Below, piece by piece: positions 1 through 25,134 of a DNA stretch of 25,134 nucleotides; the first letter of the stretch is position 1; each line of letters opens with the position of its first letter. A model generated the notes under the pieces. The model had not been told where the DNA came from. It searched no databases and worked only from the letters and a program-made list of their open reading frames with translations. The stretch covers positions 1-25,134 of IMG/VR virus record IMGVR_UViG_3300021961_000586; one strand, given 5' to 3'. This DNA comes from a virus. Position numbers and translations under genes: made by a program.

Positions 1-1197
1 GCCACGGAGTTCGCCGGGGACGCTCTTGAGCGCAATATCGGCGGCCTCAGAAAAATCGATGAAGGATGGGATTCCCGATTCAAGAGACTTTTCCTGCATC
101 ACTTCCGAGTCAAGGACAATCATTCCCTTGACTTCGCCAGTGGTGCCCTGGATGTAAACCTCCATCACCTTGTCGTTCTTGCCAAGGATGTCAACGACGT
201 ACATGTCGGCAATATCGGAGTAGCCGGAATCGATGACCTGACCTTTGAACGAAGCCTCCGCAAGACCTTCGACCTCAAGGAGGCCAAATGGGATTCCGTT
301 GCCCTTAGTGCAACCGCCCATGCAGTCGTCGCACGTCGGGGTCGAGCCGGGGTACACCTTGCGATCGAGCGAGCAGAGGTAGCCAGTGGCAGCGAGTTCT
401 TCCGACTTGACATTGAGAGCGCTAAGGCGACTGGAACGATATGCAAGAAGGCTCTTTTCGCCCATCTCGTCCTCGTCCTCTTCCTCGTCCTCTTCCTCTT
501 CCTCGTCGGTCTCCTCGGCGTCTCCCTCTTCTTCGTCCGACTCCTCAGCGGCCTCGGGTGCCTCGGGCGTCTCGGCCTCGTCGTCCTCTTCTTCGTCCTC
601 GTCTTCGCCGTCGGCCTTCATCATCATGGGCTTCTTCTTGCCCCAGCCCTTTGCCTCGGCTTCGTCCTCGTCCGACTCCTCGTCCGACTCCTCGTCCTCT
701 TCCCCATCCATCATCTCGGCGTCAGCCTTGACCTTCATGGGCTTCTTCTTGGAGAAATCTTCTTCCTCGTCCAGCATCTCGCCGTCTTCTTCGGTGAGGT
801 CATCCTCGGAACCCATCTCCTTGGAGGCGGCCTCCTCTTCCTCGTCCATTTCCTCTTCGTCGACGGGGACCATCTTCATGGCAACGGCCATTGCGCCGCA
901 CTTGCCACAGACCTTCGATCCGGGTGTGAAGCCGCATTCCGCGACTTCATAGCCCTTGGCGCAATTCAACAATTTGCCATCTGCGTCAATCTTGACAACA
1001 GCCTTTTCGTCATATGCCATGGTTCCTGGCTCCTTGTAATGAATTGTTTTGCTCAAGCACCCACTCGGAGAGGGGCACCCTTCACATGGCATACTAGCCT
1101 TATTACCAGTGACCATGCAGTAGTACTTGTTGTCTTTTTCTCTCGGACCTGCTTGCCTATTGTAACCCATCTCCGGCTTGTTTTGTTGAAAAGTCAT
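1..1197 (-). CDS. Cys-rich, highly acidic phage protein with PepSY-like C-terminal region (partial, runs off left edge)
   Basis: At least 399 residues are read on the minus strand; the C-terminus lies outside the window. From the ATG at 1197, the N-terminal part holds Cys 27, 38, 41 and 47. A second Cys cluster (GSKVCGKCGAM) follows. Next comes a long Glu/Asp tract (about 421-870) broken by two basic islands, KKKPMKVKAD and KKKPMMMKAD. A third cluster (PTCDDCMGGC) comes after that. The region coded by 1-250 resembles a PepSY-type fold: YVVDVLGKNDK, then EVYIQGTTGEVKG, then a new unit starting IDFSEAADIALKSVPGELRG. The clusters suggest zinc binding. Position after the portal and protease, plus the acidity, suggests a scaffold or head assembly role; this is inference. 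The start is uncertain: ATG 1197 has a weak AAGAG, while the in-frame ATG at 1020 has AAGGAG 9 nt upstream. I chose 1197 because the extra 59 residues carry the same kind of Cys knuckle. I do not recognise the family as a whole. Confidence 0.75.
   Translation of the reverse strand, partial: MTFQQNKPEMGYNRQAGPREKDNKYYCMVTGNKASMPCEGCPSPSGCLSKTIHYKEPGTMAYDEKAVVKIDADGKLLNCAKGYEVAECGFTPGSKVCGKCGAMAVAMKMVPVDEEEMDEEEEAASKEMGSEDDLTEEDGEMLDEEEDFSKKKPMKVKADAEMMDGEEDEESDEESDEDEAEAKGWGKKKPMMMKADGEDEDEEEDDEAETPEAPEAAEESDEEEGDAEETDEEEEEDEEEDEDEMGEKSLLAYRSSRLSALNVKSEELAATGYLCSLDRKVYPGSTPTCDDCMGGCTKGNGIPFGLLEVEGLAEASFKGQVIDSGYSDIADMYVVDILGKNDKVMEVYIQGTTGEVKGMIVLDSEVMQEKSLESGIPSFIDFSEAADIALKSVPGELRG
1030..1035 (-). 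promoter_or_regulatory. Strong internal ribosome binding site (AAGGAG) before in-frame ATG 1020
   Basis: On the minus strand AAGGAG lies 9 nt before ATG 1020, which is codon 60 of the open frame beginning at 1197. It could be the true start, giving a protein lacking the first Cys cluster, or a second start producing a short form. The same bases also encode Lys-Glu, so chance is possible. Confidence 0.45.
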
Positions 1198-1209: not shown

Positions 1210-4200
1210 TTACGTGTTGGGGATATCGACAGAGCGACCCTGTGAGTTTGTTCTCTGCTGCGTACGGGATCCAATTTCTTCTTGTGTCTTATTGATAAAG
1301 GTAGCCATCCCTGACCGAGCCATCATGTCAAGCAGTCGAGCAAAAGCCTCTATTCGCTCTTCTCCTCCAATCGACATCTGGCGGTCGATCACGATCATGA
1401 TCGCGTCCATGATTTCGTCAAGTTCCGCTTGGTTGACGAGGATCTCACCTGCGTCGGTCCTCTTGGACCCGGTCTTCGATGCCCCCTGTCGCTTGATGAT
1501 TTGCTCAAGCAACTTCAGGGACTTGGCAGTGGCGCGATCTCCGTTCTTTTCCGCTTCGCGAATCTCCTTGGGGAGTGATCCCTCGATGGCTTTGAAGAAC
1601 GTAGCCTGACCCTTTACCTCCGTACGTCCAGCCTTCTCGGAGGAAAAGCCCTGGTCACGGGCGTTAAGATATTCGGAAATATTTTTCTTGTATGGCTTGA
1701 TCGCTGAAGCAAATCCGTTGCGCTCAACCTCATCAATGAATTCATCACCCTGCCGTCCGAGCCGCTCGGCCCCTTCGGTACTTCCCTGTTGGATGAAGGG
1801 GTCGTCGCTGAACTGCTCTTGGAGGTCTTCAACCCGACTTAGCAGGCTCCTGGCAGTGCGGACACTGCGAGACTCTGCCGGTGTCAACTCATCAAGAGAA
1901 TTAACCTCTTCAAGGTAGTTCTCCAGCGAATCGATCAAGGACTCCAACTGGGACATCGTCAGATCATCGCTATCGGTCAGAATCGAGAGAACGTCCTCCC
2001 AAGCCTCGGCATGGAGTTCATCTGCCTCACCAGAGTCGGCCATGGCCCTGGCATTGTCTCTCTGCTTGTTGATGCTGTTGTCAAGACTCTTAAGGATTTT
2101 CTTTCGAGCAGCCTTGGCGTCCTTTGGAGTTATCTCGCGCTCCTCCGCCACACTGGGAGTTTGGCTTTCGGTAGCGCGCGCCTCGGCTCTCGCTGCAGCA
2201 CGCTCTCGGTCGGCGTCCGACATCGATTCAATGTCTGAACTGATCTGCCGACGACGGTCACCCATTCTTTCTTCCAGACGACGGCGGCGCCGAGCGGCCG
2301 GAGATTCTTCCGCCTCAAGTGCTCGTTCTGCAGTCTCGTTAATGAGCCGCTTCCAGTCCGCTTCTCGAAGACCCGAGTTCTCCGGCTTGAGATTGGTGAA
2401 CAATTCCTCTTCTTGCTCATCTGGGCTCATGAGTTCCCAGTCAGCGGGCTTAACCGCCGCCCAGGTCTTGCCCCTGAAGCGCTTGTCGTCACCTTCGCCG
2501 ACCGGACGACCCCTCTTGCGAGGTGCAACTTCAGAAGACAAGCCCGACCTCTTCGATCCGTACAATGGCATGCCTTTGCCACGAGGGCTGTAATTGGCGT
2601 AGTAGTCATGTAGGCGGATCCAGTCCTTGGGGGAAAGTTGCCCGTCCTGGGCGTCATATTTCTCGGCCAAACGCCTAACGACACCAAATCCACCTTGCCG
2701 CTTTGCCCAGAAAATGAATTCATCTTGCATTGACTGCGGGATGTCATCGGGCGCGCCGTTGTTGGGGCGCCGGCTGGAGAACCCATGCATCTTGAGTGGG
2801 TTCGACCGAGCCTCGGCAACCTGAGGCGAGACATACTTGCCCTTCGGGTTTATGGCGGCTAATTCGAGCACATCACGCATCTGTCGTGGGTAATCGATGC
2901 CCTCATAGTCCAGGGCCTGCAGCCCATCGATAACTCGGCCGTAGGTCTCTTTGTCCATCCGAAGCGAGCCATTTTTGGCGCTACTTGCCGCATCGACATA
3001 TGAAGCAAGACCCTCTTTGGCTCTTGCTCGACTGACGCGCTGAGAGGCTAGGCCGATGGACTTCCTGATGTCACCCAGTTGATCGTTAGTGAGGGTTACC
3101 TCCACCGGACCCTTGGCGTCGACACGACCAGTCTTGCTGGGGGTAGGCCGTGCTGCTCCAGCAGCATTTCTGAGAAGAAATTCGGCATAATCCTCTTCGC
3201 GTGCCCGCATGTTGTTTGCAAGGTCAGAGATTCGCTTGGCCGCAGCGAGCCTTTCAGCGTCGGACATAGAGTCCATCTTGCCGTCCAGGGCGTCCATCGC
3301 TTCGTTGAAGACATCGGTCTCATTGCGGTCCAGTCCGCCCAAGGTCGTTATCCGATCTCGGGCCGACGCCAGGCGCTGCGATGGTGTCGGCTTGTCGCCA
3401 ACCACATCACCATTTGGCTTGACCCTGTAGCGTGCGACTCTCTTTAGTATCGCCAACTCTCGCAATGATGTGGCACCCCCAAGTTCAGATGCATGTATTT
3501 CTGAAATGCCACCAAAAGTTTCAAAGCCGGCTCCGTCATTGAGGCGGACATAGATCTCTTGTGCGCCTGCGTCGTAATGCATGCGACTGAACGGCTTGTT
3601 CCGACTCGCTCCGGGCGCCGGGTAGATCTGGCGAGTTACGCCAAGCCCATTTCCTGCAGGCCGAGCCGACGAGAAGCCTTCTCGCGATTCTCTCGATCCG
3701 AGATACTTGCCGTACTGCTTGGCACGTTCCTTGTCCTTGGCTCGTGCCGCCTTTTTCTCCGCAGTCTTGACGAACTCTCTAGCAACACGAGGGTGGCCGT
3801 GAGTCTCGAACTGCTGCTTATCGGCTTGAGCAATGTACATGTCGATTTGCGATTCGTTGACTTTGTCAAAAAGTTCAACAAGATCGTCATACCAATTGCC
3901 CAGTTCGTACCGCTCGTACTCTGCCTCATCGTTTTTGGCAAAGGGGTTTGTTTCAAACTCGCGAATAAACTTTTCGCGCGTCATCCCTTCCATGAGGCCG
4001 GCAAGTTCTTCCCGGTCAGAGTTGATTTCTGTTGCAATTTTGTCGATTTCTTCCGTTGCCTCTTCGATGTCGGTCTTGGCATCGTCTAACTTCTGATCAG
4101 CCTCTTGCCATCGAGCGTTTTCATCAGAGTAAAAAGCCAGGATTTCATCGACGCCCGTATCGAGTTCTTCCCACTCGGCGTAGAGGTCGTCATAGGCCTC

Positions 4201-7155
4201 GTCAGTATCCCCCTCCTGGAGCGGGTTGAAGTCAGGATTGTCATCCCAGAACTTCTGCAACTTGTCAAGACGCGACTCAAGTTCGGACATGTTTGAACTT
4301 GGTTCCTTGGTATGCCAACGGCCCGAAGAGGAGAGTCCCTCTGGGCGAGTTACTGGCTTGTATCCCAGAAGTGTCTCGATTTCTTCATCGTTGAAGCCGA
4401 GTTCTTTCAGCCTCTTCTCTCGTCGTTCAGCAAGTTCATTGCGGAAGTTTTGGCCGTCAAAGACCGTGCGACCACGCTCGTCTCGCTGGATCATGCCATC
4501 GCCACGCTCCAGACGCTCCGATGAAAGGCCGTCGCTAGAAGGGATGCCCTTCCTCGCCTTGTGGTCCTCAATAATCGAACGGACTACGTCAGAACGAGTC
4601 ATGTTGTTCTCGTCCATGATTTCGGAAACGGTGTTTCCTTGATTGAACTTTTCTCGAATGCTGGACGTCAGTTTCCGATCCTCTTGCGAAGCCCGAACGA
4701 ATTTCCCATCTTCGGTTCGGCGGACGCGAAGTGCGCCGTCGTCGGTGATCTCCCAATACTCGGAATCGCGCGGGTCATATTTGCCGGACTGCAGACGCTT
4801 CATCCGATCTGTCATCTCACGTAAGCGATCCTCGTTACGCTCCTCCCTGGTGGAAGGAGCCACGGAGCGCTTGCGCCCTTCCGTTCTGCTGAGAAGTGCG
4901 AACGGTTTGTTGTCGGAAATTGCACGAGCGTTGGATCGCGCATCGCCTCGTTCCGTACGGTTCAGAAGGATGCTGAATGGAGTCTCTCGTCCGCCCGTTG
5001 ATCGCTCGCGATTCCCGAGCACGACTCGGATGGTTTCGTCCATCTCCTCAATGCGCTTACGTGGGTTCGGGTCAGTAGTGGGTCGGCCGTAATTGCGCTT
5101 ACCCGGGGTCTTTGGTTTGCCCGAGTCTGGTTTGGCGAACTGACCGCTGACTGCGTCGGCTAGAGGTTTGACGCCAGGGGTTGCAGGACGTTCGAAGGCT
5201 GTGCCCTCCTGAACCAGCCCGTCGTTGTCCCCGTCTACTGCGTTAGGGTCAAAGCGGGCGGTCGCGAATCGCGCCGCCCTACGGCCTTTTCCCCCACCAC
5301 CGCCAATCCGCCCTCCTATCGCTTTATAGGAGAAACTCCCCATAGCGTTTTGGATTGCCGCCCTAAATTCGGGCGTTGCTCCGGATTTGACGATGATGCC
5401 CTTCTCCGTAACTTCTGCGGTAGCACCGTAGTAGTCGAGGATCGGGTCAATGTGGGATTTGGTATCAAAAGCCTCGTGGATTTCGCACGGGATGAGTAGC
5501 GCATCTTTCTCTTCGACTTCTCCAGCAGAAGAAATAACTTCCTGCAGAAGCGAGACGATGCTCTTGAGTTTGTTCATGTTCCGGGTGCTGATTACGCGCC
5601 CAGCCTTGATGTCGATTTCCATTGTTTCGAGAAAATCAGCGGTGGCCGGTTCAAGCAATGACTTCTCGCCATCGCCAAACTTCTGGATAATCCGGAGAAG
5701 TCTGGGCATGGTTTCGTCTTCATCAGGACGGGCCATGCGGCGAGGCACGTCAATTTCAGGCTTCTGCTGAGGCTTCATCGAAACGAATTCCATCATCACC
5801 CGCTCGGGCTTGCCGAACATGTAAGAGCCGGATTCATCTTCCCGGTGGTAAGACATGCGGAACGTCATCCGCTTCGGTCCCTTCATGGCATGGAAAACAA
5901 CCAGGTTCTCACTCGCCTCGATGATCTCGATCGGATACTGCGAGCGACGACTCATTTCCATGAGCAACGCATTGCGCTTCTCCGGGCTGAGCGGCGTGGC
6001 TAGACCATCCTCGAAAATGTCGGAGTTGGCTTCTTCTTCCTCTTGCTCTTCGCGTCGTCGAGCAGCAATCATCTGCTGCCACCGCTGGCGAACAGCGTCA
6101 GGCATTTGCTGGCCCATGTAGTGGCACTTTTCGTCTTCGCTCATCAGTTGGAATTCAATATCATCCACGTCATCGAAGAAGTCGAAGTCATCTGAATAGT
6201 CGTAATCGTCTTTCTTTTTGGTATTTTCATACCGTTCAAGCAAGCGACGACCCTTGGCTGCGAGTTTTGCTGCGTCAGCCATATTCTTCGGAACTGGCTC
6301 GCCCCACGCTGCGGCTGAGAGGGCAAGTCGAGTGGGCTTGCCGTTGGGCTTCTTCATTGGCCCTGAAGGGTTGGTGAAGAAGCGGGTCAGGAACGATCCC
6401 TTGCGACGCATTTTCTGGGGGGTATCTGCCGCGCCCATGACGCCGGGCTTCAGGTTTGCCCCTTCCGTACGAGCGAAATGACGACGACCAGCGGCAGTCA
6501 GTCCACCCTTGGGGTCACGAAGTCTCTCGCCCTTTTCGTCGAAAGCAAGTCCATCGTGCTCGAAGAACCAGGAATCGTCGTCCTCCGCCTGGAGGGACGT
6601 CGCCATGTCGTCAATGTCTTCGAAGATGGCGGGGTCATTCTTCACCGAAATTGTGCCAGTTAGTTGGTTGGCACCATGAAGGACGGGAGAGCACTCGTAA
6701 AGTTCAACTTCACGAAGGATGTTGGCCTGGCGGCTGGGATCAAAGGTGGCCTGAAGTGTCTTGTAGCCGATGCTCCACTCCTGGTCTTTCCCAAAAAACG
6801 CGACGCTGGCAAAGGCCTCGCGCCCCTTTTCGGTACCGAGATTAAATTGCACTTTTGCGTAGAGACCGCCAATATTTGCCTTCTTCATCTTTTCCGGCAG
6901 GCGCGGGTCATTGGGACCGACTTCGTAGATTTCAAGAACCTTGCCGATCGGATCGTTCCAACTGTGGCCCCAGACTACGCGAGGCTTGCGGCGCTTCAGA
7001 CTTTCAGTAAAAGCACCGGGCTGGATGATGTCTCCGACGGAATCCTTGTTGCCGATTCCAGCAACAAAACACTCGACGATTCCCTCCGCCTTGTCAATAT
7101 TGATTTGGCCAGGATTCTGCTTGATTTGCAGGTTGGATTCAAACTTGTTCGGCAT
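1210..7155 (-). CDS. Giant prohead protease polyprotein (peptidase S78-like N-terminus, 1981 aa)
   Basis: Residues about 20-172 match HK97-type prohead proteases, which cleave capsid assembly proteins inside the prohead. His64 is in GHSWNDPIG, Ser128 in EWSIGY, and an acidic residue is in LYECSPV. The family is usually around 200 residues; this protein is 1981. Behind the protease come a basic module at 213-310 (KGGLTAAGRRHFARTEG, then KGSFLTRFF, NPSGPMKKPNGKPTRLALS and WGEPVPK, resembling DUF6321); acidic and mixed regions; a DxDxDG-like loop at 636-650 (DGDNDGLVQEGT); two PF-x-LL-x-RTE-x-G motifs near 726 and 751; an HTH-like stretch at 833-866; then long charged helical regions. Six G-[LF]-S-S motifs begin at residues 876, 940, 1160, 1458, 1538 and 1836. 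The start is ATG 7155, because GGAGGA lies 4 nt upstream; the frame can be extended to a TTG at 7179. The gene sits between portal and the acidic protein. Family assignment of the protease is firm; the rest is undetermined. Confidence 0.9.
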   Translation of the reverse strand: MPNKFESNLQIKQNPGQINIDKAEGIVECFVAGIGNKDSVGDIIQPGAFTESLKRRKPRVVWGHSWNDPIGKVLEIYEVGPNDPRLPEKMKKANIGGLYAKVQFNLGTEKGREAFASVAFFGKDQEWSIGYKTLQATFDPSRQANILREVELYECSPVLHGANQLTGTISVKNDPAIFEDIDDMATSLQAEDDDSWFFEHDGLAFDEKGERLRDPKGGLTAAGRRHFARTEGANLKPGVMGAADTPQKMRRKGSFLTRFFTNPSGPMKKPNGKPTRLALSAAAWGEPVPKNMADAAKLAAKGRRLLERYENTKKKDDYDYSDDFDFFDDVDDIEFQLMSEDEKCHYMGQQMPDAVRQRWQQMIAARRREEQEEEEANSDIFEDGLATPLSPEKRNALLMEMSRRSQYPIEIIEASENLVVFHAMKGPKRMTFRMSYHREDESGSYMFGKPERVMMEFVSMKPQQKPEIDVPRRMARPDEDETMPRLLRIIQKFGDGEKSLLEPATADFLETMEIDIKAGRVISTRNMNKLKSIVSLLQEVISSAGEVEEKDALLIPCEIHEAFDTKSHIDPILDYYGATAEVTEKGIIVKSGATPEFRAAIQNAMGSFSYKAIGGRIGGGGGKGRRAARFATARFDPNAVDGDNDGLVQEGTAFERPATPGVKPLADAVSGQFAKPDSGKPKTPGKRNYGRPTTDPNPRKRIEEMDETIRVVLGNRERSTGGRETPFSILLNRTERGDARSNARAISDNKPFALLSRTEGRKRSVAPSTREERNEDRLREMTDRMKRLQSGKYDPRDSEYWEITDDGALRVRRTEDGKFVRASQEDRKLTSSIREKFNQGNTVSEIMDENNMTRSDVVRSIIEDHKARKGIPSSDGLSSERLERGDGMIQRDERGRTVFDGQNFRNELAERREKRLKELGFNDEEIETLLGYKPVTRPEGLSSSGRWHTKEPSSNMSELESRLDKLQKFWDDNPDFNPLQEGDTDEAYDDLYAEWEELDTGVDEILAFYSDENARWQEADQKLDDAKTDIEEATEEIDKIATEINSDREELAGLMEGMTREKFIREFETNPFAKNDEAEYERYELGNWYDDLVELFDKVNESQIDMYIAQADKQQFETHGHPRVAREFVKTAEKKAARAKDKERAKQYGKYLGSRESREGFSSARPAGNGLGVTRQIYPAPGASRNKPFSRMHYDAGAQEIYVRLNDGAGFETFGGISEIHASELGGATSLRELAILKRVARYRVKPNGDVVGDKPTPSQRLASARDRITTLGGLDRNETDVFNEAMDALDGKMDSMSDAERLAAAKRISDLANNMRAREEDYAEFLLRNAAGAARPTPSKTGRVDAKGPVEVTLTNDQLGDIRKSIGLASQRVSRARAKEGLASYVDAASSAKNGSLRMDKETYGRVIDGLQALDYEGIDYPRQMRDVLELAAINPKGKYVSPQVAEARSNPLKMHGFSSRRPNNGAPDDIPQSMQDEFIFWAKRQGGFGVVRRLAEKYDAQDGQLSPKDWIRLHDYYANYSPRGKGMPLYGSKRSGLSSEVAPRKRGRPVGEGDDKRFRGKTWAAVKPADWELMSPDEQEEELFTNLKPENSGLREADWKRLINETAERALEAEESPAARRRRRLEERMGDRRRQISSDIESMSDADRERAAARAEARATESQTPSVAEEREITPKDAKAARKKILKSLDNSINKQRDNARAMADSGEADELHAEAWEDVLSILTDSDDLTMSQLESLIDSLENYLEEVNSLDELTPAESRSVRTARSLLSRVEDLQEQFSDDPFIQQGSTEGAERLGRQGDEFIDEVERNGFASAIKPYKKNISEYLNARDQGFSSEKAGRTEVKGQATFFKAIEGSLPKEIREAEKNGDRATAKSLKLLEQIIKRQGASKTGSKRTDAGEILVNQAELDEIMDAIMIVIDRQMSIGGEERIEAFARLLDMMARSGMATFINKTQEEIGSRTQQRTNSQGRSVDIPNT

Positions 7156-7254: not shown

Positions 7255-9279
7255 TTACTTAAACGTCTCTGCTGAGCCCGCTCGCCATGCCCGACGCGCC
7301 TCGTCTTGGGCGATTTGGAATCGGTTTTTAGCCATCAGTTGAGTGAAGTGACTGACGATGGCGGCTCGAAGGACGACATGTCGGTGCTCGGCATCCTTGA
7401 CGGACAGCGAGTTTAGGATCTCCCGGGAAATGACCTCTCGGGTGCGGAAGTTGACGTCCTGGATGCGAGAAATTTGGGCATTTACGTGGGCAATCAGGTC
7501 TTCCGAGATGAATTCTGGCGCTTCGCCCGACTTTGTTGTCACCGAGTCTCGCAGGATCGCATTGAGAACAGGTCTAACGTCTTCTTCAACCTGACGATCC
7601 CAAATGTCCTGAGGCATGACCCCGTCTACGTCTAGCACTCCGTCGGAGAGGGCTTTCCGGTTCTTTGCTCCGCCAACTTTTTCCAGGACAACTCGTTGCT
7701 GTCTTTCGAAAATCCGCTCAAGGCTTCTGCCCAAAATCTCCGTCCAGCGCTCCAGGTCAGGGGTGGCTTCAGTTTCCTTTACTTCTGCGGAAGTTTCCTT
7801 TACTTCCATCTCTGCGCCGGGCTCAGCCAACTGATTGGGCGGAAGTGGTGCCTGCGTGTTTTGCACGGCAGCATCTTGGCCCTCTGCGGCGAGGGCGCCT
7901 TGCATCGTGTTGGGGTCAAGGGGCTGTTCGCCCGTTGCCTGCCCCTCCATTCCAGGCGTCCCTGGAGCCGGAGGCATGCCGGGTGCTCCAGGAGCAGCGC
8001 CGGGCGCGCCAGGGATCTGAACGCTTGAGGGATTGGGCATTTCCTTCTCGGTATTCCCAATGGGCGTCAAGTTCGGGTTCTGGAGCATTGAGTCGGCGAG
8101 TTCGGACTTGACCTTCTTGCGACCAGTAGTCTCTCGGTACTCGTTGGCAGTAATCAAGCCTGTCTGGAATTCCTGCAGGACGTAACGGTGGCGCTCCTGT
8201 CGGTACATCACCAGGCTGGGGACGTCCTCAATGTCGAAGTCAACGTAATAGCGCTCGTCCAACTCGTCCAGGGCTCGGGCAATCGGCTCCAGGTGAGGCA
8301 TCATCGTCTCACTCCAGAAGACTCTAATTTCCTCGCCGGCGTTGCTAAATGTTCGACCCGATGCATTTCCAATCACGGACTCTGGGACACCAAAAGACGC
8401 CAGAATTTCTTCTTTCGTGATTTGACGCATCTGGATATAAGCGGCATCTCGGGGATTTGAAGATGTGTCGACAAAATCAACACCGTCATCGGCCGCGATT
8501 ACGCTCGTCTGGCCGACACGGCCAAGATTTCCCCTGAAACGGTTGCGCAATTCGTCCTTATCTTCGTCGCTAATCTCGCCTCGCACAACGAGCAAGCCCC
8601 CCGGTCGCCCATCGTTCAGGAGGAAGTTACGGTTGTAAAGTTTTGCTAGGTTTTCGATTTCGATAGCAACACCGGCGGACTCCATTGGGGTCAAGGAGAG
8701 ATATGGGTCAAGCGGATGTGGACGGCGAACCCACACGACATCTTCTGGCTTCATGATGATCTTGTCGCCGTTGGGCATCAAGACCTCGTAGCCCGCCACA
8801 AACCTCTTCGGGTCGGGGATCGGCGCAGTCGACTGAGGGGGGAGAAGGTTGAGTCCGATAATACGGCCATCGCGTCCCCGGACTTTCTCGATGAAAACCC
8901 CACGGGTACTCATGAGCAATTGGGACGAAAGTCTGTACCGGAAGATGAACGAGTTTTCCCCGATGTTCGTCTTGGTATTTAGGATGTCGAGAATCGACCC
9001 CTGCTGAAGGCGACCACTTCTAACGATCTGGCCCATCGGGTCATTGTCTTTGCGAAGAATAATAGGAAGCCGTGCTTGGTTGCCAGCAATGGCGTCGATA
9101 CACCTCGAAACCCAGGTGACCTTCTGCATTCCCTCGCGATAAGCGCGTTCGATATCCCAAGGATCACGATATGGCCGACCGGCAAAACTTGCATTATGGG
9201 CTACAGGGGCACCGGGCCCGATTGCGGCCTTGGTAGACTCTCCTGGAAGAGATTTGTTTTCAGTCGAGTTCCATGCCAT
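7255..9279 (-). CDS. Phage portal protein with Pro/Gly-rich linker and long C-terminal extension
   Basis: This 674-residue protein forms the dodecameric ring at the capsid vertex through which DNA passes and to which the tail attaches. The first 390 or so residues match the HK97-type portal family: RAYREGMQKVTWVSRCIDAI, then LLSTRG-like and PEDVVWVRRPHPLDPYL segments, then a GVPESVIGNASG wing region. Residues about 415-445 form a collagen-like Pro-Gly-Ala linker (QIPGAPGAAPGAPGMPPAPG). Residues about 512-674 form a separate charged helical domain (RWTEILGRSLERIFERQQRV onward), so the protein is longer than the usual 400-500 residues. It starts 2 nt after the stop of the small membrane protein upstream and is followed, after a 99-nt gap, by the protease gene on the same strand. 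The terminal domain could be a fused head protein or MuF-like part; that is only a guess. Confidence 0.93.
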   Translation of the reverse strand: MAWNSTENKSLPGESTKAAIGPGAPVAHNASFAGRPYRDPWDIERAYREGMQKVTWVSRCIDAIAGNQARLPIILRKDNDPMGQIVRSGRLQQGSILDILNTKTNIGENSFIFRYRLSSQLLMSTRGVFIEKVRGRDGRIIGLNLLPPQSTAPIPDPKRFVAGYEVLMPNGDKIIMKPEDVVWVRRPHPLDPYLSLTPMESAGVAIEIENLAKLYNRNFLLNDGRPGGLLVVRGEISDEDKDELRNRFRGNLGRVGQTSVIAADDGVDFVDTSSNPRDAAYIQMRQITKEEILASFGVPESVIGNASGRTFSNAGEEIRVFWSETMMPHLEPIARALDELDERYYVDFDIEDVPSLVMYRQERHRYVLQEFQTGLITANEYRETTGRKKVKSELADSMLQNPNLTPIGNTEKEMPNPSSVQIPGAPGAAPGAPGMPPAPGTPGMEGQATGEQPLDPNTMQGALAAEGQDAAVQNTQAPLPPNQLAEPGAEMEVKETSAEVKETEATPDLERWTEILGRSLERIFERQQRVVLEKVGGAKNRKALSDGVLDVDGVMPQDIWDRQVEEDVRPVLNAILRDSVTTKSGEAPEFISEDLIAHVNAQISRIQDVNFRTREVISREILNSLSVKDAEHRHVVLRAAIVSHFTQLMAKNRFQIAQDEARRAWRAGSAETFK

Positions 9280-9551: not shown

Positions 9552-10859
9552 ATGAGTGAAAATTGGGAAGAGATATTAAAATTTCTTACACCCAAGACCC
9601 CTCCTTTTTGCCCGGAAGAGCCATCCCTGACCCAAAAGGTGTTCCTGCGAACAAATGCTCTGGAGGCTCTGTTCGGTGGAGCCGCAGGCGGAGGCAAATC
9701 TAGTGCTCTATTGATGGCAGCGCTCCAGTACGTGGACGTCCCAAACTATAACGCAATTCTGTTCCGTCGCACATACGCCGACCTAGCCCTGCCAGGGGCA
9801 ATCATGGATCGTTTTCAGGCTTGGATCGCTAACTACGATGACGTAAGGTGGAACGCCAACAACTACACGGCCGTCTTCCCTTCTGGAGCCCGAATTTCCT
9901 TCGGTTATCTCAATAATTCGCAGGACTACCTGCGCTATAAGGGTGCTGAGTTCCAGTTCATCGGGATGGACGAGGTCACGGAAATCAGGGAAAACGACTA
10001 CCGTTACCTGTTCTCTCGTCTCCGCCGGCCCGCCTCTGGCCCGGTTTCCAAGGTGCCGCTAAGAATGAGGGCAGCATCGAACCCCGCTCCCAACTGGGTC
10101 CGTCAGCGGTTCATAGTGGAAGGGCAGTCCACCGGGCGCATTTTTGTGCCTTCCATGCTGACTGACAACCCAGGCATCGATGCCGAGTCTTACCGGCTCT
10201 CCCTCCAGGCCCTTGACCCCGTCGAAAGGCGCCGACTCGAAGAGGGTGACTGGTGGTCCACTACCCTCGGATCGATGTTCGAGCGTGAGAGCATCGTCCT
10301 GGTCGAGCAGAACGAAATTCCCCAACTCACAAGCACCGCACGGGCGGTTAGATTCTGGGACTTGGCCGCTACGGAGCCTTCTCAGACCAATCCAGACCCA
10401 GACTGGACCGTTGGCACATTAATGCTATTTGACCAGGGTATCGCCTATATTTTGGATGTAAAGAAGGTCCGGGCGAAGGGCGAAAAGGTAGAGCAATTCA
10501 TCGCTCAGACCGCCTACGAGGATGGCCATGGAGTTGCAATTAGGATGGAGCAGGAGCCTGGCTCCTCTGGAAAAGCCCTGGTAGATCAGTATGCGCGCTA
10601 CGTCCTGCCCGGCTACGACTTCGCTGGAATTCGCTCAACCGGAGACAAGATCACCCGAGCAAGGCCATTTGCCGCTGCCGTTGCTAATGGTAATGCTCGA
10701 TGCGTTAGAGGGGTGTGGCTGACGGACTGGCTGGACGAATTGGCTTCTTTCCCCGAAGCGTGCTCTCACGACGACCAGGTTGACTCGGCCGTTGGCGCTT
10801 TTACATTTCTTGCCGGTCTGGGGTTGCCACAGCGCAAGCGAGCCAGTATTGTCGTATGA
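9552..10859 (+). CDS. terL: Terminase large subunit (packaging ATPase and nuclease)
   Basis: This protein pumps DNA into the prohead and cuts it into unit genomes. The 435 residues contain the Walker A loop FGGAAGGGKSS (41-51), a Walker B strand FQFIGMDE (135-141; Asp140, Glu141) and a likely coupling segment SNP at 176-178. The C-terminal RNase H-like nuclease starts with RFWDLAATE (Asp270), continues with RMEQEPGSSG (Glu333 region) and ends with SHDDQVDSAVGAF (Asp407, 408, 411). Length fits the family. The start has GAGGAG about 6 nt upstream. It is the first gene of the plus-strand block and points away from the portal, which is unusual. No small terminase subunit is recognisable nearby. 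Confidence 0.96.
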   Translation: MSENWEEILKFLTPKTPPFCPEEPSLTQKVFLRTNALEALFGGAAGGGKSSALLMAALQYVDVPNYNAILFRRTYADLALPGAIMDRFQAWIANYDDVRWNANNYTAVFPSGARISFGYLNNSQDYLRYKGAEFQFIGMDEVTEIRENDYRYLFSRLRRPASGPVSKVPLRMRAASNPAPNWVRQRFIVEGQSTGRIFVPSMLTDNPGIDAESYRLSLQALDPVERRRLEEGDWWSTTLGSMFERESIVLVEQNEIPQLTSTARAVRFWDLAATEPSQTNPDPDWTVGTLMLFDQGIAYILDVKKVRAKGEKVEQFIAQTAYEDGHGVAIRMEQEPGSSGKALVDQYARYVLPGYDFAGIRSTGDKITRARPFAAAVANGNARCVRGVWLTDWLDELASFPEACSHDDQVDSAVGAFTFLAGLGLPQRKRASIVV

Positions 10860-10900: not shown

Positions 10901-11389
10901 ATGAATGCCCACTTGGTATCGGAGTTACGGGAATTTCTTAATTCCCTCGATGCTTCCTTGTCCGACAATGAGGATGCTTCCCTGGAGGAAATTGCCGACA
11001 TCCTGCTAGAACTCAATCTGGCCAAGCGCGATCTTGGCTACATCTATCAATCGGTTGAGTCTGCCCTCGCAGTGAAGATGACGGACAAGATTCTGGAACT
11101 GCGCGATGGTGCTCAGATTGAGCGCAAGGTCTCTTCGTCGAGGTCCAAGTGGCGTCACAAGGATTTGGCTTCCGACGTTGCCGCTCGTATTCGTCAATCT
11201 GCCGTGGACATGGATACGGGAGAGGTCGTTATGAGCCCGGAAGAGATGGTCGTCAAACTTCTCGATTTCGTCCAGCCGTCATATTGGCGAGTCGGGGAAC
11301 TTGGCAAGATCGGATTGAATCCCGACAACTATTGCGAGGTCGGAGACACCGACGTTAGCATCATCCTTAGAAAGGGAAATGCCCAATGA
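10901..11389 (+). CDS. Helical protein of unknown function, upstream of the Rad52-like gene
   Basis: The 162 residues are mostly predicted helical and acidic at the start (LVSELREFLNSLDASLSDN), with a basic middle (KVSSSRSKWRHKDLASDVAARIR) and a compact C-terminus (PSYWRVGELGKIGLNPDNYCEV). I chose ATG 10901 because GGAG lies 6 nt upstream. The frame also extends to ATG 10856, which overlaps the terminase stop as ATGA and would allow translational coupling, with little Shine-Dalgarno sequence. The gene overlaps the next one by 4 nt, so it probably belongs functionally with the annealing protein and nuclease. Family not recognised. Confidence 0.8.
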   Translation: MNAHLVSELREFLNSLDASLSDNEDASLEEIADILLELNLAKRDLGYIYQSVESALAVKMTDKILELRDGAQIERKVSSSRSKWRHKDLASDVAARIRQSAVDMDTGEVVMSPEEMVVKLLDFVQPSYWRVGELGKIGLNPDNYCEVGDTDVSIILRKGNAQ

Positions 11390-12042
11390 GTAATGAAATT
11401 TTTTCACAGTTGTCCGAACCGTTTCCGAGAGAAGTCGAACGGCAACTAAAAAAGGGTGGAGCGTCTTTGACGTACATCCCCGTAAGCGAGGTCATCACTC
11501 GGCTAAACAAAGTCATTGGCATTGGCAACTGGTCGAGCGAAATTCTGATGTGCGAGCGCGACAAGACCGACAACGATTTCATTGTTGCCCATGTGCGTCT
11601 CGTTGTGAGCATCGACGGTAGCACCGTGACCAAAGATGGTTTCGGTGGGCAGAAGATCAAGAGGACAAAGACCGGAGAGATCGTCGATCTTGGCGACGAG
11701 TTCAAGGGCGCTGTTTCGGATGCCTTGAAGAAGGCGGCTCAGCAGTTGGGGGTCGGCCTCTACCTCGCCCGCTCAGATGAGGCCCTTGCCATCGAAGAAG
11801 AGGAGTCGCGTCCCCCGGTGAACGAAGAGGTCATCCGCCTGTGGACGACTTTCCTCACTCACACAAAAGAAATGAATGCCGAGCAAAAGAATGAACTCGG
11901 TGAAGCATGGAGCGCCTGGTCTGACGGATCACCAAAACCCACTTTGGATACCGCCACAACCGAAGATCTTGACTTCCTGATTGCCGAATGCGTTCGGATT
12001 TCCATGGGAGCAACCTCGGTTGAGGACGCTACCGATGAGTGA
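11386..12042 (+). CDS. Rad52-like single-strand annealing protein
   Basis: The first 140 or so residues follow the Rad52/Rad22 pattern: LSEPFPREVERQL, then SLTYIPVSEVITRLNKVIG with IGNWSSEI, then strands around VRLVVSIDGSTVTKDGFGG, and finally the helix GAVSDALKKAAQQLGVGLYL. Proteins of this family anneal complementary single strands and promote phage recombination without a full RecA reaction. The last 75 residues are acidic and variable, as is common in phage annealing proteins, and may bind a single-strand binding protein or nuclease. ATGA overlap with the upstream gene and an 8-nt overlap with the nuclease downstream indicate one operon and probable cooperation: the nuclease exposes single strands and this protein anneals them. 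Confidence 0.87.
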   Translation: MSNEIFSQLSEPFPREVERQLKKGGASLTYIPVSEVITRLNKVIGIGNWSSEILMCERDKTDNDFIVAHVRLVVSIDGSTVTKDGFGGQKIKRTKTGEIVDLGDEFKGAVSDALKKAAQQLGVGLYLARSDEALAIEEEESRPPVNEEVIRLWTTFLTHTKEMNAEQKNELGEAWSAWSDGSPKPTLDTATTEDLDFLIAECVRISMGATSVEDATDE

Positions 12043-14214: not shown

Positions 14215-14527
14215 TATCGAAGAGGAACTCATCCGCCTTATCGAAATGTTGGAGGATGAGACCGAAGCCTTTGAGCGCCTCGCTGAGGACATGGCAAAAA
14301 AGGAAGCGCTCTACAAGGCGAACTGGGCAAAAGAGTATCTTTCCGCCAAGGGTTCGATCAAAGAGAGAGAGGCTTGGGCCGACTACAAGTTGGCGGACGA
14401 GTCTTACGACTACAAGATTTCTGAAGCATTGTTGAAGTCGAAGAGGGAAAAATTGCTTTCTCTCAGGACGTCGATTGATGCGATGAGAACGCTCAATGCC
14501 AACGTGCGAGTGCAGGTTTCACCATGA
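14183..14527 (+). CDS. Small coiled-coil phage protein of unknown function
   Basis: The 114 residues are almost wholly helical, with heptad-like stretches (IEEELIRLIEMLEDETEAF, then YKANWAKEYLSAKGSIKERE, then SKREKLLSLRTSIDAM) and a TLNANVRVQV end. Similar small proteins are common near RuvC- or nuclease-type genes in phages, but I know no function. I chose GTG 14183, with a perfect GGAGG 7 nt upstream; an ATG at 14156 is in frame but has no such site. The last codon overlaps the next ATG as ATGA. Confidence 0.8.
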   Translation: MRRNGPISQVDIEEELIRLIEMLEDETEAFERLAEDMAKKEALYKANWAKEYLSAKGSIKEREAWADYKLADESYDYKISEALLKSKREKLLSLRTSIDAMRTLNANVRVQVSP

Positions 14528-15318
14528 ATTACAACGTGCATCCGTCAATTCACGATCTACTCGTCGACATCTCTTCTCTTAGTCCTTTGGACGGGAACCC
14601 ACGAAAAGGAAACGTCGATGCGATCATGTCCTCCTACAAGGAGTTCGGCCAAATTAAGCCAATAGTCATTCGCCCAAACGACGATGGGACGTCGACGGTA
14701 GTGGCAGGTAACCATCAAGTGCAGGCCGCTAAAAAACTTGGGTGGACGCACATAGCGGCAGTCAAACTGGACGCTGATGACCAAAAGGCCATTGCGTTTG
14801 CTTTAGCGGACAACAGAACAAATGAGTTGGGCTACAGCGACAGCAACCTAGTTTTTGAACTCCTGTCCGAGGTTCAGGATTCATACACGGATCTTCTGGA
14901 TGGGCTCGGGTGGGATGAATTCGAAATTGCCTACTACGACGAGCATGCAACCAAATCTAAGTACGAAAGCATCGGGAGTGAGAGCCAGTCAGGGTTTGTT
15001 GTTCCTGAAATATCAGCCCCTGCGGTGCCGTCCCCTGATCACTTCAGCGCAATGGTCAGGCAAGACGAGGACGGCGAGCACAAGATCATTGCAGGCAACA
15101 ATGCGGATCACGAGGATGCGGCAATCCGAGGCTCAACGGTAGTTACTCCGGGGGCAGCGCCAAAAGCCGTGGTCCAGTACACGATTGTCTTCGAAGACTC
15201 CGAACAGCAGAAACGCTGGTATGACTTCATCCGGTGGCTGAAGTTGCAAACGGGTTATGAGGGCGCTACAGTTTCTCAGAAATTAATGGCTTTTATTGAC
15301 GCCCATTCAGAAGTCTAA
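14524..15318 (+). CDS. ParB-like nuclease-domain protein (first of two)
   Basis: The first 130 residues match the ParB/sulfiredoxin-like fold: NPRKGN (25-30), YKEFGQIKPIVIR (38-50), VVAGNHQVQAAKKLGW (59-74) and FALADNRTNELG. In phages such proteins can act as DNA-binding regulators, nucleases or companions of modifying enzymes; true partition is unlikely without a ParA nearby. A variable linker (145-215) leads to a C-terminal module VVQYTIVFEDSEQQKRWYDF at about 216-235 with further helices. The total of 264 residues exceeds the bare domain. Start overlaps the previous stop (ATGA) and the gene lies 9 nt before a PAPS-reductase-like gene, followed by a second ParB-like gene, suggesting joint action. 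Confidence 0.85.
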   Translation: MNYNVHPSIHDLLVDISSLSPLDGNPRKGNVDAIMSSYKEFGQIKPIVIRPNDDGTSTVVAGNHQVQAAKKLGWTHIAAVKLDADDQKAIAFALADNRTNELGYSDSNLVFELLSEVQDSYTDLLDGLGWDEFEIAYYDEHATKSKYESIGSESQSGFVVPEISAPAVPSPDHFSAMVRQDEDGEHKIIAGNNADHEDAAIRGSTVVTPGAAPKAVVQYTIVFEDSEQQKRWYDFIRWLKLQTGYEGATVSQKLMAFIDAHSEV

Positions 15319-15327
15319 GGAACCATA

Positions 15328-16455
15328 GTGACCCGTCAAAGAATGTTTCTGGACGTAAATGTCCTGGAGGCTGCACGCGCCCGGATCAGGCACGTATACG
15401 ACACCTTCGATACGGTGTGTGTCCAGTTCTCGGGAGGCAAAGACTCCACGGCGGTTCTGTACCTAGCAAAAGAAGTCCACGAAGAGCGCGGACTCGGACC
15501 GGTAAAAGTAATTTTCCGCGACGAAGAGATGCTGAGCCCTGCAACCGTGTCCTACGTCGAGATGGTGCGTGATTTCGACTGGGTCGACATGGAGTGGTAC
15601 TGCTTGCCGTATGGAGCAGAGATTTGGGTACTTGGTCGCCGTCAAACCACCATTTTGTGGGGAGACAGGCGCCGAGAAGAGGGTCGATGGGTTAGGGACA
15701 TGCCTCCGGGAGCGATAACCGGCTACCACTTCGGGCTTGATCACTCGAAGAATCTCCCCCAGCCCCTTGACTATTATCAGATGCAAGGGAAGAAGGGGAG
15801 TGTTGCCTTTATCACCGGCGTTAGAGCGGCTGAATCAATGGTCCGATACAGGTCGCTGGTGCAGAAGTTGCACGAAAACTACATCGTTCATCCGTATGGG
15901 CTCAGCAAGTCCGTGCCACTCAAGTTCGCAAAGCCGATTTACGACTGGAACGTCAATGACGTATTCAAGTTTATTTCGGAAGAGCATGGTGCGCCCTATT
16001 GCGAGTACTACGACCTCGCGGCTCTAACTGGGTCCAACACCCGAGTGGGGATCCCGCTACACGCAACGGCAATCCGAAGAATTGGCGATGTTGTGGCAAC
16101 CGAGCCAGAGTTCTACGACAGGCTTTACGAGTGTTTTCCACAGATTGACGCCCAACGTCGTTGGTGGCCAGACTTTGATGTTGAAAAGTTGATCGATGAC
16201 TACGCCCAGGACGGCTGGGACGGGGTTTCGGAATTTATTTCCACCTACATCATTGGCCCCAGCAAAACCCGAAGGGCCAAATCATTTGCTGCGGAGTTTA
16301 GGAAAAAGCACATCGCTGATCCATACTCCTACCCAATCAACTACCTCATCAGAAACTTGATGTTGAGCGAGTTGGCGCGCGGCAAGTCGGTATCTCCGGT
16401 GGGCCCAAAGACTAGGGCCGATACTCAAAGAAAGAGGGAACTTAGCAATGACTGA
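15328..16455 (+). CDS. PAPS reductase-like PP-loop protein (IbrA/DndC-like)
   Basis: The 375-residue protein carries the PP-loop ATP-pyrophosphatase signature SGGKDST at 35-41, after VCVQF, with later family-like segments VKVIFRDEEMLSP, FITGVRAAESMVRYRSLV and PIYDWNVNDVFKFI. The domain activates substrates by adenylation; relatives include PAPS reductase (sulfate assimilation), DndC (DNA phosphorothioation) and IbrA. The catalytic Cys motif of genuine PAPS reductase (ECGIH) is not seen, so sulfate reduction is unlikely. It starts with GTG after AAGGA. It is flanked by ParB-like genes on both sides and overlaps the second by 8 nt, which resembles the IbrA/IbrB pairing. A role in nucleic acid modification or regulation is inference. 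Confidence 0.85.
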   Translation: MTRQRMFLDVNVLEAARARIRHVYDTFDTVCVQFSGGKDSTAVLYLAKEVHEERGLGPVKVIFRDEEMLSPATVSYVEMVRDFDWVDMEWYCLPYGAEIWVLGRRQTTILWGDRRREEGRWVRDMPPGAITGYHFGLDHSKNLPQPLDYYQMQGKKGSVAFITGVRAAESMVRYRSLVQKLHENYIVHPYGLSKSVPLKFAKPIYDWNVNDVFKFISEEHGAPYCEYYDLAALTGSNTRVGIPLHATAIRRIGDVVATEPEFYDRLYECFPQIDAQRRWWPDFDVEKLIDDYAQDGWDGVSEFISTYIIGPSKTRRAKSFAAEFRKKHIADPYSYPINYLIRNLMLSELARGKSVSPVGPKTRADTQRKRELSND

Positions 16456-22475: not shown

Positions 22476-25134
22476 ATGGCTGATGCACAAATCATCGTTA
22501 GGGCGCACCTTCGTGGCGAACGTGAACTAAATAAGGCCAAGCGCAAACTAACTGAAATTGGGCTGGCCGCAAGTGTTGCAGATAAAAGGCTTTCCAGCCT
22601 AGGAGCATCTGCGAATACGGCAACAGCCCGCCTGACTGCTAATAGCAATAAGTTCAGGAAGCATTTTGACGATTTTGACAAGATGGTCAAAAAGTTCGGA
22701 ACTGTCTCCCTTGGTGGGTTCAAGGCTGCCAGCAAAGTCTTTATTGCCGAAATGGGCCTAATGTCACTCACCATGGTGACCTTCCACGGCCTTTTGGTAG
22801 CAGGTCAGTGGCTGGTCAAGGCTTATCACTCCAGTATGAAGGCCCTGGCTGGGGCCGCTGCCGGAGCGGCCGTTGCGCTGAGTTCTGTTGCTGCGGCGAT
22901 TCGAGAGCAACAAGCGGCAATGTTCGCCTACAAGGGACTCAACTACAACTACGCCGAACTGGGTAACAATACGCGCCAAGTCAGCAGCGTGATGAGGGGG
23001 CTACAGAAAGATTCCACGCTGGCCACTCTCGGCGTCCAGAACCTCAACGCCGCATTTGGTGCGGTATCCCAGCGATCTACCTTCACTGAGGAGTCGAGGC
23101 TCCTTCTCCGTTCTTTGATGGACTTTGGCTCAGCCGGCCGGTCGCTCGAAGAGGGAGCGAAGGCTGTTGGAGATTTGATTGGCCTTCTGCAAGACCCGGA
23201 CGCCTCTTTCGACGAGATCAAAGCCTCCGCCGAAGCACTGGGACCGACGATGAAGAAGGCGCTGAAAGAGGCTGGGATCGAAAGTGCGGCAGAGTTGAAG
23301 AAGGCTGCGCTTTCGGGTCAATTGGCAGTTCTTGGCGGCGTCCAGGGGCAGTTTGATGCGGTGAACGACACCCTGATCAATAGATTCAAGAAGTCATTCA
23401 CCATCATTCAGGCTGACTTTGCGGATTTGGGTGAGCAGTTCCTGGGGCCACTAAAAGACTCTCTCGATGAAGTGACGCTCATCTTCAGGCGAACATTTTT
23501 GCGGGTCAGAAACCTGCTGGACGATTTTGGCACTACGACTTTCATGGAGACGGTCGTAGGAGCGGCAGAGAAAATGGAAGAATTCTTTGTCAAGTTGTTC
23601 AGGGAGTATCTGCCCCAGGTCGAAGGAATGTTCAACCGTATCGGCGACTGGTGGGACCGATTCTCCACTGGCTGGGACTACATAGTCGAGCGGATGCGAA
23701 TCTTCGTAGATGGCGCTCGTGTTATTGAAGAGGCGTTCAAGGCGCTGATTGGCCCCATATGGGACGCTATTAAACAAAGTTTTGGGACTTTCAACCTTGT
23801 TCTTCAGCAGAACAGAGACAACTTCGTTGAGTTCGGTTCCCAGATCGGAGAAGCCCTTGCGAAGTTCATGGAGTTCGGTACGGTCCTCAAGCAACTATTC
23901 TTCGAGTCGCTCCCGTTTGTCAATAGGGTCCTTGAGGGAATTCAGCAAGTCCTAGGTTTCATTACTGACAGCATCAAGACATTGAAGGGGATGATCGGCG
24001 GTTTAGGTACCGATGGATTCGGTTCATTCCTCACCTTTGCGACCGTGATGTTGGGCTTGTCGAAAATGAAAAATGTGAAGGGCGGTTTCATCAACCAGCC
24101 AGTCCAGGCCATGAATGTGACCGCTGGAACGGTCAACTTGATGGGGCCAACCGGGATTACTCAGGGCGGCCAGGTTTACAATAACCCCAACACGGGAGGC
24201 GTTCCTTACTACACCGGCCCAACAGGTGGCGGCGCCGGCGCTGGGGCGGGGGGATTCTCCAGTCTCAAGGGTGGCGCACGTCAAATGATGCAGCAGTACC
24301 CTGGCATGACTCGTCGTCAGGCTTTGATGTTGGCGCAACAGGGCGGCATCCCGGCGACAGCCCTAGGTGGGTACGGTGCGATGCGTGGCGTTGGCATGAC
24401 TCGCTATCAGTCGCTGAAAAACATTTTTAGCGTTCCTATGACGCCAGCAAATGCTCCAAGGGGCTTCATCCAGCGTGCCGGCGTCCCAATTCGTAATGCT
24501 CGTGAAAGCGTCGCTGGCAAGGCCGTAAGTCGCTTTGGAAGCAGCATGTCTGGCAAGTTGGGTGCAGGCATCGGCTTGAACCTTGCGGCTGGCTTTATGC
24601 CCGAAGAGGCTCAGGGGGCAATGGCCCTTGGCTCTACCCTTGCGATGTTCAACCCCCTATTGGGGCTTGGTGTCGGCCTTGGTGGAGCGGCCATGAACGC
24701 CCAGACTGCGGGTGGGGGAGCGTTAACAGGAGCGGGAGCCGGTGCAGCGATCGGAACAATGATCATGCCCGGAGTTGGAACGCTCGTGGGTGGAGTCATC
24801 GGCGGAATCACCGGTGGGATCATGGGCGCCTTTGGTAAGAAAAAAGCCGAAATAAAGAAGGCCAAAGAGGCGGCTCGAAGCATCGCCGAAGAGTTGGTGA
24901 ACAACACGGTTGCTGGTTTGACCGGAGTTCTGGAGGAATACGGGCGAACGGGCCTGACCCAGGAACGACTACGGGAGGCCTCTGGGTTTAACAAGATTTC
25001 TCGGTTAATGAGTCAGATCGATTCATCCCTTGGGGTCGACGATGACTCCGGGCGAGATCGTCTTGTTCGTCAGTTTTACCAACTCCAAGGAATACTAGGA
25101 ATCGAATTCCCGGACACTCTTGAGGACGCGCTGA
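22476..25134 (+). CDS. Tape measure protein (partial, runs off right edge)
   Basis: At least 886 residues are read to the end of the window without a stop. It starts at ATG 22476 with GGAG 6 nt upstream. Tape measure proteins set tail length and pass DNA through the membrane. Here a helical charged start (AHLRGERELNKAKRKLTEIG) is followed by a hydrophobic region at about 93-145 (MSLTMVTFHGLLVAGQWLV, then ALAGAAAGAAVALSSVAAAI), long amphipathic helices, Gly/Pro-rich linkers at about 560-620 (GAGAGAGGFSS), and a glycine-zipper stretch at about 750-788 (AIGTMIMPGVGTLVGGVIGG). Position after the chaperone and the length fit the call. The true length is unknown. Confidence 0.9.
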   Translation, partial: MADAQIIVRAHLRGERELNKAKRKLTEIGLAASVADKRLSSLGASANTATARLTANSNKFRKHFDDFDKMVKKFGTVSLGGFKAASKVFIAEMGLMSLTMVTFHGLLVAGQWLVKAYHSSMKALAGAAAGAAVALSSVAAAIREQQAAMFAYKGLNYNYAELGNNTRQVSSVMRGLQKDSTLATLGVQNLNAAFGAVSQRSTFTEESRLLLRSLMDFGSAGRSLEEGAKAVGDLIGLLQDPDASFDEIKASAEALGPTMKKALKEAGIESAAELKKAALSGQLAVLGGVQGQFDAVNDTLINRFKKSFTIIQADFADLGEQFLGPLKDSLDEVTLIFRRTFLRVRNLLDDFGTTTFMETVVGAAEKMEEFFVKLFREYLPQVEGMFNRIGDWWDRFSTGWDYIVERMRIFVDGARVIEEAFKALIGPIWDAIKQSFGTFNLVLQQNRDNFVEFGSQIGEALAKFMEFGTVLKQLFFESLPFVNRVLEGIQQVLGFITDSIKTLKGMIGGLGTDGFGSFLTFATVMLGLSKMKNVKGGFINQPVQAMNVTAGTVNLMGPTGITQGGQVYNNPNTGGVPYYTGPTGGGAGAGAGGFSSLKGGARQMMQQYPGMTRRQALMLAQQGGIPATALGGYGAMRGVGMTRYQSLKNIFSVPMTPANAPRGFIQRAGVPIRNARESVAGKAVSRFGSSMSGKLGAGIGLNLAAGFMPEEAQGAMALGSTLAMFNPLLGLGVGLGGAAMNAQTAGGGALTGAGAGAAIGTMIMPGVGTLVGGVIGGITGGIMGAFGKKKAEIKKAKEAARSIAEELVNNTVAGLTGVLEEYGRTGLTQERLREASGFNKISRLMSQIDSSLGVDDDSGRDRLVRQFYQLQGILGIEFPDTLEDAL

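Follow-up and report, generated by a model that had tools for sequence, protein, structure and literature searches.

What does a virus gain by repeating one four-residue peptide six times along the distal half of a giant protein? The question is raised by P0001, the 1981-residue product of an open reading frame (ORF) in IMG/VR virus record IMGVR_UViG_3300021961_000586 (positions 1 to 25,134; this whole stretch of 25,134 nucleotides is called the window here), which begins with a prohead protease domain of the S78 family and carries GLSS or GFSS at six places. We propose, with a probability of about 0.62, that a tailed phage makes P0001 as a structural polyprotein whose motif is cut in trans during head maturation, most likely by S78, to give products that are packaged and probably ejected. 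The ORF, its length and the end of its protease domain proved correct as read in the original prediction, which was made from the letters of the window without database searches, and the six motif positions that it named matched exactly (Table 1).

The repeat is real and not a product of chance. P0001 contains six G[LF]SS peptides against 0.066 expected, a count reached in none of 2000 composition shuffles, and GLSS and GFSS are its commonest 4-mers. Two lesser claims of the prediction fared worse: a basic or Pro/Arg segment follows the motif at only about half of the sites, and the equal spacings of 298 residues (1160-1458 and 1538-1836) are due to chance, the first being 299 in the homologue described next. 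GLAS at 1368 and 1382 was considered as a source of extra sites and set aside, as both copies lie within predicted helices and look incidental; GFAS is also present, at 1814. In an AlphaFold2 (AF2) model of residues 860-1981 (mean predicted local distance difference test score, pLDDT, 71), five of the six motifs fall in stretches with pLDDT below 50, which make up 19% of the model (binomial p ~0.001), and the sixth (1458) lies in coil; a shallow alignment may be part of the cause of the low scores. By this model, five of the six motif-bearing linkers are presumably disordered.

A homologue on another IMG/VR contig (L001/G001) is 90% identical to P0001 over the full length and keeps all six motifs, with 23 of the 24 motif residues identical; the sole change, GLSS to GFSS at 1538, stays within the motif's own range. 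Past the point where the window ends, this contig has further motif-bearing ORFs, one of 1599 aa with GLSS and GFSS and one of 496 aa with GFSS, so the motif is a property of the virus's structural cassette rather than of one protein. The segment DPNAxDxDxDGxVQEGT is common to P0001 and the 496-aa ORF, and a DNA pattern for it retrieved 27 viral contigs, many with large ORFs that repeat peptides of the same shape and another spelling (copies per large ORF: GLRS-type 12, GMRS 5-7, GFAS/GLAS 5, GLAS 7, GLSSG 3). Their shared gene order is terminase, portal, giant S78 ORF, acidic protein, second giant ORF with HExxH, further ORFs, capsid protein (PF05065) and tail. The motif is again spread over several ORFs: GMRS/GLRS in five ORFs of G003, GLRS/GMRS in five of G007, GMAS in four of G011 with GLAS in a fifth, GLSSG in two of G006 (10 and 4 copies) and GFAS/GLAS in two of G004. 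No repeated motif of this type was found in L003/G002, which has a 387-aa protease.

A scan with the protease-domain alignment gave 80 IMG/VR S78 loci. Most giant S78 ORFs among them carry a repeated motif. Over all relatives, the motif comes in a version that differs by virus (GMRS, GLRS, GMAS, GLAS, GFAS, GLSSG, SMRS, STRS, GSKST, LGSRS) and in 1 to ~24 copies. GMRS(R), with GFRS/GLRS/GVRS, occurs 22-24 times within at least 3507 residues in L064 and L084, where the stretch ends at the locus end; elsewhere there are 9 copies of GLAS (L128), 9 of GMRS (L083), 9 of FAS (L124) and 15 of LGSR (L094), and L100 has LRSSG. P0001 thus belongs to a widespread family of uncultured viruses. The prediction had expected motif number to vary while motif sequence is kept; number does vary and sequence is kept within a virus, while between viruses it is replaced as a set, which we judge the stronger form of that expectation. 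In L075, L080, L085, L089, L090, L095 and L130, S78 is a separate, motif-free ORF of 460-498 aa and the next giant ORF bears the motif; versions in giant ORFs placed in this way are SMRS, STRS, GSKST and GMSS. Since S78 and motifs can occupy separate ORFs, the reader can act in trans.

Motif copies within one gene are written in unrelated codons, including exchanges between TCN and AGY and between CGN and AGR, so selection acts on the peptide. Recent duplication is ruled out by the same scrambling, and so are repeats kept at the DNA or RNA level (recombination joints, packaging or regulatory sites) that would encode the peptide incidentally; the shuffling of modules would suit such repeats, yet with codons fully scrambled among the copies of one gene their probability is negligible. 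For 216 motifs from 22 genomes, the mutual information between genome and motif residue was 0.83 bits at position 2 and 0.94 bits at position 3, against a shuffled null of 0.16 +- 0.03 (z 22 and 24, descriptive only since the genomes are related). One version is common to up to five ORFs per genome, and it switches between genomes while the flanking modules stay homologous. The site before the C-terminal module reads GFSS in the window, GLRS in G007, GMRS in G003, L083 and L063, GMSS in G011, GFAS in G004, SFAS in L124, GLAS in L128 and TLRS in L100; that before the NNGAP module reads GFSS, GLRS, GMAS, GFAS, GLSS or GLAS. A tree built from the S78 domains of 23 motif-bearing viruses shows at least 7 switches of the dominant residue at each of motif positions 2 and 3. 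Short flexible turns that merely space the modules, with no reader, would agree with linkers rich in Gly, Ser and Arg; a spacer, though, does not need a fixed 4-residue sequence, and the concerted change of positions 2 and 3 over several ORFs per genome does need a reader, which makes this explanation very improbable. The sequence comparisons support instead a motif that would be read by a common partner at module boundaries.

That the motifs mark such boundaries is seen when the ORFs are split at them: the resulting blocks can be aligned between viruses over their whole length. The block at 1458-1537 of P0001 aligns in this way with blocks of 72 aa (G011) and 79 aa (G007), and the 146-aa C-terminal block aligns with blocks of 147-158 aa in four viruses (G001 residues in the block comparison are numbered from a point before the ATG used here, which raises each number by 9). 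Modules have also moved from one ORF to another, with motifs at the borders of the moved pieces; the counterpart of block 1160-1367 in L041/L033 sits in a different ORF, directly after GMRS, and starts with a KTSC domain. In 11 ORFs, 0 of 98 motifs lay inside recognised Pfam domains, against 8.7 expected (1 in 5000 simulations). Motif-bounded domains include a UvrD helicase in G006 (1102-1874, bounded by GLSSG at 1054 and 1909), Zeta toxin (G011, G003, L041), ArdC-N with MPTase-PolyVal (L094, L095), an RNase_T exonuclease (L095), NUDIX (L085) and pentapeptide repeats (L090); KTSC and helix-turn-helix (HTH) modules also occur. A single S78 ORF, L094:9986-20506, combines five KTSC stretches with ArdC-N and MPTase-PolyVal, and the UvrD module of L045:6602-16096 gives a PDB match to 9xzj, a chain of F-box DNA helicase 1 (E 8.5e-23). 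A motif-segmented structural polyprotein is well supported. In L046:5729-13015, units resembling HTH/sigma70 region 4 (LKRREAGESLQDVAESLGMRREDVRKAE) are repeated in several modules of one polyprotein, probably through internal duplication.

A reader that binds rather than cuts was the prediction's own alternative. The motif would then be a docking or cargo-loading peptide, perhaps of the encapsulin type, in which the peptide binds the inner face of the shell, and an uncut multivalent chain would bind the capsid interior, portal, scaffold or protease and hold its modules in the prohead. Docking would account equally well for repeats in flexible linkers, for one virus-specific version in several structural ORFs and for a motif that varies independently of the site at which the capsid protein is cut. 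Its likely partners, the capsid proteins and S78, are nevertheless conserved though the version changes strongly, and both the tightly spaced copies (GLSSGEGLSSG, LGSRSKPLGSRG) and the placement only between unrelated enzyme domains suit separation better than anchoring, so that we consider docking unlikely. Because the repeats stand at module edges, are read in trans, have a version rewritten as a set and lie beside a head-maturation protease, proteolytic processing is the most economical reading.

The S78 domain is the first candidate for the cutting enzyme. It is recognised by Pfam (E 8e-10, 39.5 bits against a curated cut-off of 21), the PHROGs label for the first part of P0001 is head maturation protease, and the catalytic residues H64 and S128 are invariant in an alignment of 34 relatives. 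A search of the PDB with its sequence gave no match; with its AF2 model, Foldseek placed T4 gp21 (5jbl) at the top (prob 1.00, E 3e-3) and herpesvirus proteases after it, with weak E-values of which 3e-3 is the best. With H64 and S128 invariant, the domain looks active. Herpesvirus assemblin cuts between Ala and Ser, and cleavage by the HK97 enzyme produces a Ser at the N terminus. In most motif versions Ser comes directly after a residue that is either small or basic (GLS↓S, GMR↓S, GLA↓S, SMR↓S, STR↓S, GSK↓S; arrows mark the proposed bond). The protease of phage P1 is similar to HK97 gp4, and Ser is the first residue of this phage's mature capsid protein (PMC9024508).

Several observations weigh against processing at the motif by S78. 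The capsid protein is a substrate of the prohead proteases studied to date (PMC7411985), so an enzyme whose code changes would be expected to have left its mark on that protein. In G002, G003, G006, G007, G008 and G011, five of which are motif-bearing, the major capsid protein has no motif, at the maturation site or elsewhere, and its presumed mature N-terminal region (KDV[YF]S[AG][LI]P[TS]GTP) is nearly constant across versions. The S78 domains themselves are ~75-80% identical to the window's across versions, and the residues that covary with version (65 and 135) offer at most 3 independent supported pairs, inseparable from phylogeny. No repeated motif was detected in three S78-headed ORFs of at least 2745-3507 aa (L109:3041-13561, L113:9980-20500, L120:4922-13156), and the LGSR of L094 is followed by Gly, Ala or Gln as well as by Ser. 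Finally, the second giant ORF of the same cassette has a zincin-like HExxH peptidase-like domain in all six motif-bearing genomes examined (G001, G003, G004, G006, G007, G011), while the ORFs fetched from motif-free G002 have none.

This last pattern is what one would expect if another phage peptidase, such as the HExxH domain, read the motif as a processing site. Autoprocessing by such domains has been proposed (Iyer et al. 2017, PMC5512222), and the motif-free capsid protein would be explained. On the other hand, HExxH went undetected in some fetched motif-bearing contig fragments, many of them incomplete, and at the loci examined the main motif-bearing ORF either begins with S78 or has the S78 gene immediately before it; we hold this reader to be a doubtful one, with somewhat less in its favour than docking. 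Cleavage at the motif by one protease or the other seems likely, and the balance tips, by a smaller margin, towards S78 as the enzyme responsible.

We thus favour processing by S78, with the following layout. In P0001, an assemblin-fold prohead protease at the N terminus would be followed by a leader that contains an EF-hand-like segment and then by six modules. Each module begins with G-[LF]-S-S, the peptide that a phage protease, most likely S78, would read in trans during head maturation. The cut would most probably fall before the last Ser (G-phi-x↓S), yielding at least seven products: protease plus leader (~878 aa) and then proteins of roughly 64, 220, 298, 80, 298 and 143 aa. Packaging of these products in the head would follow, and probably their ejection into the host together with the DNA, in line with what has been proposed for the polyvalent-protein class discussed below. 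Of the self-processing polyprotein put forward in the original prediction, the sites for a common partner at module boundaries are supported; cleavage, and its assignment to the fused S78, we infer.

The EF-hand-like segment precedes the first motif in every motif-bearing ORF that possesses one. In second giant ORFs that lack it, a different recurrent segment, RCPPGTPAANQFTDxxGxNC-like, stands ahead of the motifs (L034:1488-6284, L003:14439-18509, L037:16897-18846) and is perhaps another leader or targeting element. DUF6321 is located in other ORFs in some relatives. A Pfam search of P0001 found no domain beyond S78 and DUF6321, MPTase and ArdC included, and Foldseek gave no significant match for the C-terminal half.

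Table 1. P0001, its parts and the adjoining genes, in window positions
Feature	Positions	Strand	Remarks
P0001, structural polyprotein, 1981 aa	1213..7155	-	ATG at 7155; stop codon 1210-1212
Peptidase_S78 (assemblin-like prohead protease), residues 26-169	6649..7080	-	Pfam, PHROG, alignments, AF2 model
DUF6321 domain, residues 213-284	6304..6519	-	Pfam
EF-hand-like segment RFDPNAVDGDNDGLVQEGTAFERP	5176..5256	-	candidate leader
Motif 1, GLSS, residue 876	4519..4530	-	
Module 876-939	4339..4530	-	homologue G007_A 1243-1311
Motif 2, GLSS, residue 940	4327..4338	-	
Module 940-1159, long-helical	3679..4338	-	AF2
Motif 3, GFSS, residue 1160	3667..3678	-	
Module 1160-1457	2785..3678	-	first part homologous to KTSC-bearing modules
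Motif 4, GFSS, residue 1458	2773..2784	-	homologous site in relatives: GFAS, GLSS, GMAS, GLAS, GLRS
Module 1458-1537 (RRPNNGAP...)	2545..2784	-	block-to-block homologues in G011, G007, G004
Motif 5, GLSS, residue 1538	2533..2544	-	GFSS in L001
Module 1538-1835	1651..2544	-	homologues G003_A 562-837, G007_A 1939-2250
Motif 6, GFSS, residue 1836	1639..1650	-	relatives: GLRS, GMRS, GMSS, GFAS, SFAS, GLAS, TLRS
C-terminal module 1836-1981	1213..1650	-	polyprotein end in many relatives
Acidic protein, no motif	1..1197	-	directly downstream of P0001; 399 aa seen here, 553 aa in L001
Portal protein	7255..9279	-	directly upstream of P0001; Pfam
Terminase large subunit	9552..10859	+	divergent; Pfam

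Elsewhere in the window, the tape measure protein (22476-25133) has a single GGFSSLKGG at residue 593, and in G004 the ORF L043:9995-14908 carries GLAS, GFAS and GMSS; in both cases the protein is possibly processed and the match possibly chance. The window also encodes a Rad52-like gene (11386-12042) and a PAPS reductase-like gene (15328-16455; a PHROG auxiliary metabolic gene) adjoining a ParB-like gene (14524-15318).

In a tblastn search of a collection of 50,697 cultured-phage records, the P0001 and G007 polyproteins matched by the S78 domain only, among the matches listed, and the second giant ORF of G003 had no match; the cultured phages GMA6, DalanDe and Gilgamesh show no motif repeat. 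The host is presumably a bacterium. One copy of the system (L033, DUBN01000009.1) is on a low-coverage contig binned with an Acidimicrobiia metagenome-assembled genome, a weak hint only at Acidimicrobiia as host; the system was not found in 296 genomes of that class, in a search without a positive control.

For tailed DNA phages at large, the chances are about even that these loci represent a true polyprotein strategy, in which giant structural ORFs code for as many as two dozen unrelated proteins. These would be separated in the prohead by cuts at a lineage-specific code (GLSS, GMRS, GLAS, STRS, SKST, LGSR...) that has been rewritten as a set many times, and exchangeable effectors (helicase, nuclease, anti-restriction, toxin) would be delivered with the genome. 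The spelling specific to each virus looks like a cut-site code that releases a set of packaged proteins. If so, the motif would provide a sequence-only parsing rule for giant phage proteins annotated 'capsid maturation protease' or 'hypothetical', and module edges, hence the delivered proteins, could be read from the genome. Such viruses would also offer a naturally occurring set of protease/substrate pairs, altered many times over, for specificity studies, orthogonal proteases and head-loading tags, and a strategy best known from RNA viruses would extend to tailed phages.

RNA-virus polyproteins combine an embedded protease with repeated cognate sites whose sequence is lineage-specific. The present system has no homology to them and differs in having its site in more than one ORF and, presumably, a bacterial host. 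To prohead proteases of the HK97/T4 type it is linked by the domain, the catalytic His/Ser, the fold and the position next to the portal. T4 gp21 and SPN3US gp245 each process several of the proteins packaged in the head, with a short consensus as the cutting site (AXE in SPN3US; PMC7411985), and in SPN3US/phiKZ many head-packaged proteins are processed at one motif and ejected (PMC7411985, PMC10052503). However, known prohead-protease substrates lose propeptides and the ejection proteins of SPN3US/phiKZ come from separate genes, whereas here 6-24 identical, virus-specific sites lie between unrelated modules of one polypeptide. Our literature search found no paper describing a motif-segmented design of this kind.

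Polyvalent proteins, as described in the parts of Iyer et al. (2017, PMC5512222) on which we draw, are multidomain proteins of phages and conjugative elements, predicted to be packaged, injected and released by embedded peptidases, and their authors themselves compared them to RNA-virus polyproteins. In those passages the assemblin-like peptidase is always C-terminal and no repeated inter-module motif appears, whereas in the present family S78 stands at the N terminus or is encoded by an upstream ORF of its own. Like them, the proteins studied here are very long, multidomain and encoded near portal and terminase genes, with a mix of peptidase, ArdC-N, MPTase-PolyVal, kinase/Zeta, helicase and nuclease domains; the hallmark domains are found in relatives (L094, L095, G003, G011, L041), P0001 itself showing S78 and DUF6321 only. 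Polyvalent proteins are the nearest known class.
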